From contig JABAAT010000038.1 in NCBI GenBank assembly GCA_014238615.1, positions 1-64,000 on the forward strand: 64,000 nt of DNA, in the 5' to 3' direction. Made by a program: the position numbers and the translations under genes. This document shows positions 43,286 through 46,102 of the stretch, piece after piece. Positions within the stretch are counted from its first letter, which is position 1. Every line of letters starts with the position of its first letter. Under the pieces are notes generated by a model. That model was not told the DNA's origin. It saw only the letters and a program-made list of their open reading frames with translations, and did not search any database. The stretch comes from Gammaproteobacteria bacterium (GTDB lineage Bacteria > Pseudomonadota > Gammaproteobacteria > Porifericomitales > Porifericomitaceae).

Positions 43286-44005
43286 ATGCATCACCTCCCG
43301 CCGCGCCGGGGCTTATGCAGTAACCAGAACCGACCCCACGAGCGGCTGTACGAAGCGCTGCAGCGCGCTTCCAGTGCTTCTTTCGAGAAACCGATCAGCA
43401 CCGGTTGTGTGCGCACCTTCACCCGCGTTGAAGAATTACGCGCCCGGCACGGCGGCCCCCTGCTGCTGGATTCCGGCTGCGGTGACGGCAGCGGCAGCCT
43501 GCGCCTGGCCCGGGCCTGCCCGCATGCCTTGATTATCGGTATTGACAAGTCGGAACACCGCCTGCGCCGCCACGAACTTCAGCAAAACCTGCGGCTGCTG
43601 GGCAACTGTCTGCTGGTGCGCGCTGACCTGGTGGATTTCTGGCGCTTGGCGGCCGCGGCGCGGTGGCGGGCCGCACACCACTACCTGCTCTACCCATGCC
43701 CCTGGCCGAAGCGCAGGCACCTGCGGCGCCGCTGGCATGCCCACCCGATCTGGCCCATCCCGGCCCTGCTGGCTGAACGCCTGGAATTGCGCACCAGCTG
43801 GAAGCTCTATGCCCAGGAGTTCCTCCTGGCCTGGGAATATTCCAAGCTCGGCAAGGCGCGCCTGGAACGTTTCCTGCCCAACACAGAACCCCTGAGCTCC
43901 TTTGAACGCAAGTACGTCGCAGCCGGGCAACCCCTGTACCGCTGCCTGGCGACCAGCGCACCGCGCAAGGTCGCGAGCAGAGCGGTCAGCAGAGCGGTCA
44001 ACTGA
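43286..44005 (+). CDS. TrmB-like SAM-dependent methyltransferase, catalytic Asp replaced
   Basis: 239 aa from the ATG at 43286, one base after pyrK. SAM-binding LLLDSGCGDGSGSLRLA is at about 59-75 and an acidic IIGIDKSEHRL follows. The region equivalent to the TrmB active site (usually FPDPWPKKRHxKRR) reads YPCPWPKRRHLRRRW, Cys at about 138 instead of Asp. The overall fold is TrmB-like (tRNA guanine-N7 methyltransferase), but this may be a paralogue with another substrate or no activity. The 3' end has a short tandem repeat (AGCAGAGCGGTC twice). Confidence 0.82.
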   Translation: MHHLPPRRGLCSNQNRPHERLYEALQRASSASFEKPISTGCVRTFTRVEELRARHGGPLLLDSGCGDGSGSLRLARACPHALIIGIDKSEHRLRRHELQQNLRLLGNCLLVRADLVDFWRLAAAARWRAAHHYLLYPCPWPKRRHLRRRWHAHPIWPIPALLAERLELRTSWKLYAQEFLLAWEYSKLGKARLERFLPNTEPLSSFERKYVAAGQPLYRCLATSAPRKVASRAVSRAVN

Positions 44006-44049
44006 CGGGTAGGCCGTCGACGGGGGCACCGCCGACCGTTGAGTCATTG

Positions 44050-44165
44050 GGGAGATACGATCGGGGATGGGATCGGCGGGGGTCTTGCTCAAACTGGTAG
44101 AGCTGCCAGGGGAAATCAGGGGGGATCAGGGAGAGCTCAGGAGGGAATCAGGGGGGAGATCAGGC
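44050..44165 (+). repeat. G-run-rich direct repeats
   Basis: Many runs of three to six G separated by ATCA or AGAT, with repeated GGGGGATCAGGG-like units. On the plus strand this could fold into G-quadruplex structures in the 3' untranslated part of the pyr transcript, just before the terminator. No coding potential. Confidence 0.6.
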
Positions 44166-44175
44166 CCTATAATAG

Positions 44176-44203
44176 AAAAGGGCGACTGTTCAGTCGCCCT
44201 TTT
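44176..44203. terminator. Bidirectional terminator between the pyr operon and pqqA
   Basis: Perfect 13-bp inverted repeat (AAAAGGGCGACTG and its complement) with a two-base loop, A-run on one side and T-run on the other. It can stop transcription of the plus-strand pyr/trmB-like genes and of the minus-strand pqqA, whose stop codon is 28 bases away. Confidence 0.88.
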
Positions 44204-44230
44204 CGGCTCGCAACAAGTAATCTACTGGAT

Positions 44231-44305
44231 TTACTTGTTGTTGATGTACATCGTCACTTCGAAACCGAAGCGGATGTCGTTGTATTCAGGGGTATCCCAT
44301 TTCAT
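44231..44305 (-). CDS. pqqA: Coenzyme PQQ precursor peptide PqqA
   Basis: 24-codon gene (ATG 44305, TAA 44231-44233). The peptide has the PqqA pattern W-x-x-P, then D-I-R-x-G-F-E-V-T-M-Y; the Glu (residue 16) and Tyr (residue 20) that PqqE links and that become the PQQ backbone are both present with the usual three-residue spacing. GAGGAG lies eight bases upstream of the ATG. The gene is alone: pqqB, C, D, E are not in the window. It is flanked by a promoter-like region and terminators on both sides, so it is a complete independent unit. It may be an extra copy supplying precursor. Confidence 0.93.
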   Translation of the reverse strand: MKWDTPEYNDIRFGFEVTMYINNK

Positions 44306-44360
44306 GATGTAGACTCCTCTCGTGGATGGATGGTGTCAGTTAAAGAATTAATTGCCTTGT

Positions 44361-44381
44361 TTTATAGCATTCCTCATGCCA
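44361..44381 (-). promoter_or_regulatory. Candidate pqqA promoter (sigma-54-like, or sigma-70 extended -10)
   Basis: The minus strand reads TGGCATGAGGAATGCT (plus 44366-44381), with GG and GC spaced as in -24/-12 sigma-54 promoters. It overlaps GCTATAAAA, an extended -10 for sigma-70 (TATAAA at plus 44361-44366). The leader would be about 50 nt. Either reading suits a strongly expressed short gene; sequence alone does not decide. The surrounding 44306-44460 is markedly AT-richer than its neighbours. Confidence 0.45.
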
Positions 44382-44456
44382 AACTCTGGGAGAGGCGCTT
44401 CTTAAACACCTGCTCTTCCTGTAATATCAAGTTAAATCAACGACTTAGCGCATTAT

Positions 44457-44489
44457 AAAAAAGCGCCCCCGGTCCATGAATCCAGGGCG
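44457..44489 (-). terminator. Candidate terminator upstream of pqqA
   Basis: On the minus strand a five-base GC stem (CGCCC/GGGCG) with a 16-base interior is followed by six T (A-run at plus 44457-44462). It would shield pqqA from transcription entering from 44490-44900. The interior loop is large, so strength is uncertain. Confidence 0.4.
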
Positions 44490-44901
44490 GTCCCTCCGAA
44501 GGTTGTCTCCCGCTGGTTATTAACCACCACCGCATCCAAATGCCGACGGCGACCCGGGCCTGAAACCCTCCCAGGCAGGAAGGGAACTCCCAAGCATAGA
44601 GTGACATAAAGCGGCGGAGCAGGCCGGGAGGACACCGGGCAAGTGACGGCTCAAAAATCCTCCCTCCCGCGGGTTTCCTCCCTGCATCCGGCGGAATGAA
44701 CTTGGAAGACCTCCATCCCTGTACATCTTAATGAGCCGGTATCCAAGATGGGCGTGGACCGATACGGAAGTCTCCAACCCGCTCTTGTGTCCTCTTTCCG
44801 GCAGCGCACCGCTCCCGCCGGCCCAGCCTGGATTGCAACTTCTTCAGCATTTCGATGGCGTTCCGCTCTCTACCAGGCCACCGGGAGATAGCAAGGCCCC
44901 C
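44490..44901. other. 412-bp region without a convincing gene
   Basis: A 61-codon minus-strand frame (44728-44913) shows basic, helical composition (RERNAIEMLKKLQSRLGRRE) but has no recognisable family and runs into the junction repeat. It may be the end of something older. Nothing else is visible. Confidence 0.3.
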
Positions 44902-44957: not shown

Positions 44958-46102
44958 CAGATACCTTCCGTCCCCGTCCCGCAGGAGCTTGACGGTTTCT
45001 GTGTGCCCTCCCGCCTCTGCGTGCGCCAAGGCAGTCCAGCCGTCCTTGTCCCGTAGGTTGGGGTTAGTCTTCTTATCTAGCAGAGACTGTGTGATGCTCG
45101 TGCGCAGAGAGCATGAGTGCCGTGAGACCGGCATCTTCCTGCATGTTGATCTCTGCTCCCTTTTCCAGAAGTAACTCCACGAGCTTATCCTCCCCCAACA
45201 TCGCTGCCAGCATGAATGCCGTTACGCCACCATTCGCCTGGGCAACGACATTCACTCTGGCAGCAAGCAACACCTTGACGACAGCCACGTGTCCCTTTAC
45301 TACTGCATGTATCAATGCCGTCGAGCCGCGCTTGTCTTGTGCGTTGACCTTTGCCTTGGTGGCAAGCAGCAGTTTGACGGTTTCCTCGTGCCCGTTGACG
45401 GATGCGTAGATCAAGGCCGTACCGCCGCGCTTGGCTTGTGCGTTGACGCGCTTTTCCCGTTCACTAGCATTTGCGGCTGATGCACCAATCAGGAGTCGGG
45501 CGATTCCCGCATGCCCGTTGACCGATGCATATTATGAGTGCCGTCTGCCAATCCTTGTCTTGCGCATCGGCATCAGCGCCCGCTTCCAGCAGTAACTGGA
45601 CGGTTGGTTCGAGTCCCTCTTCTGCTGCGAACATTAGTGCCGTTCTTCCGTCCCCGTCATGCGCGTTAGGGGAAAACGGGAGGGGCCCGCCGCCGTGAGG
45701 ATCGATCTCCAGAAGCAACTTCTTAAGGTTGGTCTCGTTCTCCTTGCGTTGCTCTTTTTGTGGCTCTCCTGATCGAGGTCGGATCAGCCGACCAACCCAG
45801 CGATTCAAGGGCTTCCAGATACGGGAGATAAGGACTAGCGAAAATATTGACCCAACGGTTGAGGCGATAATTTGGTTACTGAGCAGTCGGGGGAGGTGCA
45901 GAGCAACCAACTCAAAGCATAATGAAACCCAATCGATTACTAGTGAGACCCAGTCATTTTCTATAGCAAGCCGATCAATAACTCGCGAAGTCCAGCGACT
46001 TGTCAGAGGAACATCCCCATCTCCACATCTCCAGCTCAGTAAGCCTACGGAGCCGATGTGCGGCCACGGCCCCAAAGGCAGATTAGGCCGGTATTTTAGC
46101 AC
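44943..46102 (-). pseudogene. Ankyrin-repeat membrane protein gene with two frameshifts
   Basis: Read from a GTG at 46102, the product has a hydrophobic segment (about residues 80-105, IIASTVGSIFSLVLISRIW), a basic linker and then ankyrin repeats (GRTALMFAAEEG, GTALIYASVNGHEETVKLLL, GSTALIHAVVKGHVAVVKVLL, GVTAFMLAAMLGEDKLVELLL, WTALAHAEAGGHTETVKLL). The repeats continue across two frame changes, one near 45530-45536 (one extra base) and one near 45110. About 385 codons if repaired. Two sequencing errors could also explain it, but the neighbouring small gene is broken too. Lower G+C than the flanks suggests acquisition. Confidence 0.82.

Follow-up and report, generated by a model that had tools for sequence, protein, structure and literature searches.

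A solitary pqqA gene with a candidate sigma-54 promoter and a putative two-component system for PQQ precursor supply in Gammaproteobacteria

Introduction

PQQ is the cofactor of methylotroph methanol dehydrogenases, and one molecule of the precursor peptide PqqA is consumed for each molecule of PQQ made. The means by which cells adjust PQQ supply to demand are, in our view, poorly understood. According to the accessible portions of PMC4109929, PMC9851590, and PMC11317620, methylotrophs may contain multiple and orphan copies of pqqA. In Azospirillum, a PQQ alcohol dehydrogenase has been described as being under the control of sigma-54 together with a LuxR-type regulator (cited in the available parts of PMC6115532 and PMC12826043), and expression of pqqA–lacZ depends on the ECF factor RpoE6 (PMC12826043, same part). 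Control of the pqq operon in Pseudomonas has been attributed to AgmR (PMC12997753, in excerpt).

The locus described here shares features with each of these systems. Like the orphan genes of methylotrophs, this pqqA lies away from other pqq genes; the orphans in the accessible portions of those reports are additional copies, whereas here pqqA is the sole copy. As in the excerpted Azospirillum case, sigma-54 appears to exert control within PQQ-dependent metabolism, although there the target is a dehydrogenase gene and the partner a LuxR-type protein, and here the target would be pqqA. With the ped/pqq regulation of Pseudomonas (AgmR, PedS2/PedR2) the locus would have in common that PQQ supply is regulated and tied to alcohol oxidation, but no sigma-54 step for pqqA was found in the available text of PMC12997753. 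A term search of the accessible text of a broad sigma-54 regulon comparison (PMC12316311) did not return "pqq", and in the literature that we searched, which includes few subscription papers, we found no account of a two-component pair of this kind placing pqqA under sigma-54 control.

Results and Discussion

The analyzed DNA (the window, 64,000 nucleotides) is the first part of a 209,808-bp contig from a MAG (G000: 1,666,869 bases, 75 contigs, 99.27% complete, 0.41% contaminated). The original prediction placed a 24-residue PqqA in this window without naming a strand. The gene is exact on the minus strand, with the ATG at 44305–44303 and the TAA at 44233–44231 (Table 1); the plus-strand reading of the same stretch gives a peptide unrelated to PqqA. 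In a profile search the peptide scored 37.9 bits against PF08042 (cut-off 21.1, E = 5.9e-9). This is the only match in the whole genome, and 14 control genomes gave none. Glu and Tyr, both of which had been predicted, stand three residues apart in the sequence EVTMY, as for cross-linking. These results confirm that pqqA is a genuine gene. Its product resembles PqqA of family PF08042 in length, EVTMY core, and profile score, and differs in being encoded by a sole copy that is unlinked from pqqB and pqqCDE.

Table 1. Sequence features of the pqqA locus (window coordinates)
Feature	Position	Strand	Description
Inverted repeat 3' of pqqA	44175..44204		Likely terminator; fold of transcript end
pqqA coding sequence and stop	44231..44305	minus	24 residues, MKWDTPEYNDIRFGFEVTMYINNK; translation and PF08042 match
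RBS-like GAGAGGAG	44314..44321	minus	8 nt ahead of the pqqA ATG; read from sequence
Sigma-54 -24/-12 promoter site TGGCATGAGGAATGCT	44366..44381	minus	Zero mismatches to TGGCAYRNNNNWTGCW
Putative enhancer (activator-binding) dyad TGGTGGTTAATAACCA	44514..44529	minus	One mismatch to TGGTT-N6-AACCA

The surroundings of the gene agree with the original prediction in several respects. The expected ribosome binding site is represented by an RBS-like sequence. The claim of flanking terminators holds on one side: downstream of pqqA a strong hairpin forms within a 74-nt stretch (-24.7 kcal/mol, z = -3.1), which a terminator pattern scan left unscored, but none could be established on the other side. 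Since an A run pairs with a T run in this hairpin, it could terminate transcription from both strands. Degenerate repeats of the type tcaggggggatcaggg lie past the terminator (44100–44165), and a short reading frame that by eye looks ankyrin-repeat-like lies upstream of the regulatory region (45073–45414).

The gene had also been credited with its own promoter-like region. A pattern scan of 43900–44800 found no sigma-70-type promoter; the promoter site that is present is of the sigma-54 type, with the -24 GG and -12 GC elements of TGGCATGAGGAATGCT at canonical spacing. RpoN is encoded on contig C15 (PF04552, 208.6 bits). The lack of a sigma-70 site, the perfect sigma-54 site, and the presence of RpoN all count in favor of sigma-54. 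Counting against it, TGGCAYRNNNNWTGCW occurs twice in the genome, as often as a reversed-pattern control; the second match falls within a coding frame that is presumably metZ-like. Sigma-54 promoters need an activator to switch on, and the description of pqqA as a strong gene is therefore not supported.

The original prediction had missed this sigma-54 site, a dyad located some 130 bp farther upstream, and a two-component system. By genome scan, this is the only place in G000 where the dyad combines with a nearby sigma-54 site. The genome contains 41 dyads with at most one mismatch (reversed-pattern control: 13), so that the dyad alone is not specific. One perfect dyad (C63:105350) was treated as chance because the sequence looks coding by eye. 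No dyad with at most one mismatch was found in the loci around the two quinoprotein dehydrogenase genes of this genome (L030 and L031).

We then turned to the activator. G000 contains six PF00158 matches, of which four full-length-looking sigma-54 activators were used as tblastn queries. At 11 loci of our survey (below), a close relative of the activator on contig C72 (48–60% identity) is encoded no more than 4 kb from pqqA; the other three activators matched these loci less well. The gene for the C72 activator comes after one for a histidine kinase. At most of the 11 loci the kinase–regulator operon is divergent from pqqA, L077 being an exception. In the present MAG the pair and pqqA are on different contigs. 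The kinase has HAMP, HisKA, and HATPase domains (Pfam), and the regulator a receiver (PF00072), a sigma-54 activation domain (PF00158), and a Fis-type HTH (PF02954), these three over their cut-offs. With these domains, a -24/-12 promoter, and an upstream dyad, the system resembles NtrC-type systems, the closest in NCBIfam being AtoS/AtoC. Unlike AtoS/AtoC, it is tied to pqqA, it reaches no equivalog cut-off (AtoC 341.9 of 714 bits, AtoS 132.8 of 646 bits), and the regulator reads GAFTSA at the position of the sigma-54 contact loop, where such activators usually carry GAFTGA. An AlphaFold2 model of the kinase (mean pLDDT 79.3, pTM 0.46) is helical over residues 12–228; Foldseek matches to the model were mostly kinase cores, and no signal was inferred from the structure.

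A scan of GTDB contigs with an alignment of the kinase gave 196 confirmed loci. Among the best 80 of these, which include USCg_Taylor as well as Thiotrichaceae and Legionellales MAGs, pqqA lies inside the fetched stretch at 39, and at 36 the kinase–regulator operon is divergent from pqqA at a distance of 215–430 bp (<500 bp). The kinase also occurs without an adjacent pqqA, as in Methylohalomonas lacus HMT 1 and at five Methylophilaceae loci, four of which have dehydrogenase genes ~8–9 kb off. Three kinase-bearing MAG records (L189, L192, and L210) are titled Klebsiella pneumoniae, probable mislabels to judge from the distribution of the kinase.

Of the 36 divergent kinase–pqqA intergenic regions from these best 80 of 196 loci, 35 contain TGGTT-N6-AACCA with at most one mismatch (shuffled mean 0.46). 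Several loci labelled Thiotrichaceae or Legionellales retain the -24 element and have TGG or TGA in place of TGC at -12; in the intergenic regions of L154, L155, L159, L164, L166, L178, and L217 the -24 element is likewise kept, with TGG, TGA, or TGT at -12.

To place the locus in context we surveyed 369 genomes of the class. PqqA is encoded in 51 of them, and 90 pqqA matches were examined, a denominator that includes one copy preceded by 26 bp of sequence (G133) and one with an N run upstream (G001). A sigma-54 site within 300 bp (GG and GC fixed, at most one mismatch) precedes 52 of the 90 genes; none was found downstream or with the reversed consensus (0/90 each). The dyad occurs within 500 bp upstream of 45 genes and downstream of one (shuffled mean 1.4), and a perfect dyad upstream of 21 (shuffled 0.02). 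The dyad had been defined on kinase-linked loci, and kinase-linked copies make up 10 of the 45; the other 35 are located away from the kinase. In 35 of the 45 dyad-positive copies a partner site (at most three mismatches) lies at exactly 22 bp, close to two turns of the helix; the runner-up offset accounts for 7. By eye, the dyad of G000 has no such partner.

The pair of dyad and sigma-54 site precedes 45 of the 90 genes, in 13 of 34 families. Scanning 2.34 Mb of loci, with distinct sites counted because some contigs were present twice, we found 40 composite sites, 38 of them upstream of pqqA in a set of loci that is enriched for this gene by its selection for pqqA, kinase, or G000 origin; a control with the dyad on the wrong side gave none. 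The two remaining sites stand ahead of a gene for a PqqU-like TonB-dependent receptor and ahead of a PQQ-associated cluster. The former appears in two records (L208:8863, minus; L077:5211, plus), with dyads and a perfect sigma-54 site upstream of the receptor gene. The closest solved relatives of this receptor are E. coli YncD and a PQQ transporter (368 bits), and it scores 453 bits against NCBIfam PqqU, under the cut-off of 1200. In the latter (L222:12960–16909, from a MAG labelled Alphaproteobacteria) a kinase–regulator operon is followed by the composite site and then by a PQQ-catabolism-associated cluster, in which a beta-propeller protein of that association and an ABC permease adjoin the kinase.

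These data bear on the simplest alternative, namely that this is an ordinary dispersed pqqA as in other methylotrophs, transcribed from a housekeeping promoter, with fortuitous sigma-54 and dyad matches. Dispersed copies are indeed common: 26 of the 90 surveyed genes are isolated, and Methylophilaceae carry 3–12 pqqA copies according to the available part of PMC4109929. The isolation of pqqA is thus not unusual; the conserved upstream switch is the notable feature. The pair is found ahead of 18 of the 26 isolated and 18 of 50 clustered copies. Given that the sigma-54 site and dyad are kept upstream of pqqA in 13 families, and that the stretch around the window gene holds no sigma-70-type site, we consider this alternative unlikely.

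Co-occurrence across genomes provides a second line of evidence. The kinase ortholog is present in 30 of the 51 genomes with pqqA and in none of 29 genomes without it. The weakest match (1.9e-147) is so far under the limit of 1e-50 that the kinase group is sharply bounded; 10 of the 30 genomes had supplied rows of the kinase alignment. When dyad and sigma-54 site are required to be 60–190 bp apart, 25 of the 30 kinase-bearing genomes have the pair compared to 1 of the 21 kinase-less genomes (Fisher 1.3e-8), leaving five exceptions with the kinase and one without it. Counted by family, the pair is found in 13 of 16 with kinase and 0 of 18 without. Kinase, dyad, and pqqA are associated across genomes, at conserved spacing. 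In a phylum-wide sample, 85 loci, a part of all matches, were fetched, and 16 were dropped where the profile recovered no pqqA at 15 bits. The other 69 yielded pqqA genes, 37 from gamma and 32 from non-gamma members, and the pair precedes none of them. The module therefore belongs to a subset of Gammaproteobacteria.

The same comparison addresses the possibility of a genuine sigma-54 promoter that answers to a general activator of nitrogen status, for instance NtrC or NtrX, instead of to the linked pair. G000 does encode further sigma-54 activators, and a sigma-54-like site of looser fit precedes pqqA in 9 of the 21 genomes that lack the kinase, three of them with a different activator gene upstream of pqqA. 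However, the dyad follows the kinase through the genomes, the kinase gene adjoins pqqA in many of them, and TGGTT-N6-AACCA is unlike the NtrC site. A general activator is hence a decidedly improbable driver. The three kinase-less loci with a different sigma-54 activator gene (L042, L107, and L108, from G028, G109, and G304) have it 1.2–3.2 kb upstream of pqqA on the same strand, and perhaps represent a second solution for sigma-54 control of pqqA.

Next, we consider the other genes for PQQ synthesis and use. As originally predicted, pqqBCDE are absent from the window. Profile searches found PqqB (393 bits) on contig C12 and PqqE (553 bits) on contig C64, where pqqC and pqqD adjoin pqqE, so that all four partner enzymes are encoded in the MAG on contigs other than that of pqqA. 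The reported gap of about 44 kb stands on one side; on the other it grows from 20 kb to ~165 kb on the full contig. The expected PQQ-dependent dehydrogenases are represented on contig C41 by an unambiguous quinoprotein dehydrogenase of the methanol/ethanol type (TIGR03075, 689.9 bits, cut-off 480.05) and a second, weaker one that stays under this cut-off (409.3 bits). A genome lacking pqqE and the other PQQ genes, the outcome named in advance as refuting the original prediction, is therefore not what the MAG shows. The suggestion that a separate gene sets precursor supply is consistent with a normal-looking PqqA, its own transcription signals, and the presence of pqqB, pqqCDE, and dehydrogenase genes; it needs correcting in that the gene is not an extra copy, the assembly holding no further pqqA. 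For pqqA2 and pqqA3, the orphan genes of Methylobacterium extorquens, the possibility of a role outside PQQ synthesis, for example in the handling of lanthanides, has been raised (PMC11317620, in the accessible part). For the isolated PqqA described here, such a role is very hard to reconcile with a sole detected PqqA that has the EVTMY core in a genome with pqqB, C, D, and E, where PqqE would otherwise have no known substrate.

The three other genomes of the family carry two pqqA copies each, compared to one in this MAG. In G002 and G003 one copy is located ~220 bp ahead of pqqC, and the second is isolated beside pyrR-pyrB-pyrC-pyrK (names assigned from sequence). The remaining pqqA of G000 sits in this pyr neighborhood with inverted orientation. 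Ahead of its pqqC neither the profile nor inspection by eye of the region examined revealed a second pqqA. This region (L028:8539–9300), where relatives carry the gene, contains direct repeats that copy the start of the adjacent dihydropteroate-synthase-like gene. Because the genome is a MAG, a second copy may have been lost from the assembly.

Taken as a whole, the evidence makes it probable that pqqA, which encodes the PQQ precursor peptide, forms a transcription unit of its own, and that a dedicated two-component, sigma-54 system sets the supply of this precursor. From the genomic data we infer that the C72 pair acts on the pqqA gene of the window. RNA polymerase with sigma-54 (RpoN) would bind the -24/-12 site, and in response to a signal the membrane histidine kinase would phosphorylate the NtrC-type response regulator. 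Bound to the dyad, the phosphorylated regulator would contact the polymerase, spend ATP, and open the pqqA promoter. The signal would in this way set the amount of PqqA made, which PqqE/D, PqqB, and PqqC, encoded elsewhere, would turn into PQQ for the PQQ-dependent dehydrogenases of the genome. Several observations count against this mechanism: the GAFTSA loop of the regulator, the equal count of the sigma-54 pattern and its reversed control, and, in this genome, the kinase pair on another contig, the one mismatch in the dyad, and its missing 22-bp partner.

Conclusions

A broader proposal, to which we give about even chances, is that of a dedicated PQQ-supply regulon. One kinase–regulator pair would sense PQQ demand (methanol, lanthanide, or PQQ itself) and, through sigma-54 and the TGGTT-N6-AACCA enhancer, control how much precursor peptide is made. 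Some lineages would have a PqqU-like importer for PQQ scavenging under the same control. This regulon would extend over 13 or more families of Gammaproteobacteria, which are for the most part uncultured and among which is the USC-gamma methanotroph lineage, and the sole pqqA of the genome studied here would now be a stand-alone target.

With a kinase, a regulator, an enhancer, and a promoter tied to the peptide that is spent per PQQ, the question of supply and demand becomes directly testable. The composite site also offers a DNA signature that may allow the PQQ regulon to be read from sequence in methylotrophs and methanotrophs that are not in culture. The regulatory layout is common to many little-studied bacteria and suggests that a dedicated signalling pair turns their PQQ supply on and off.
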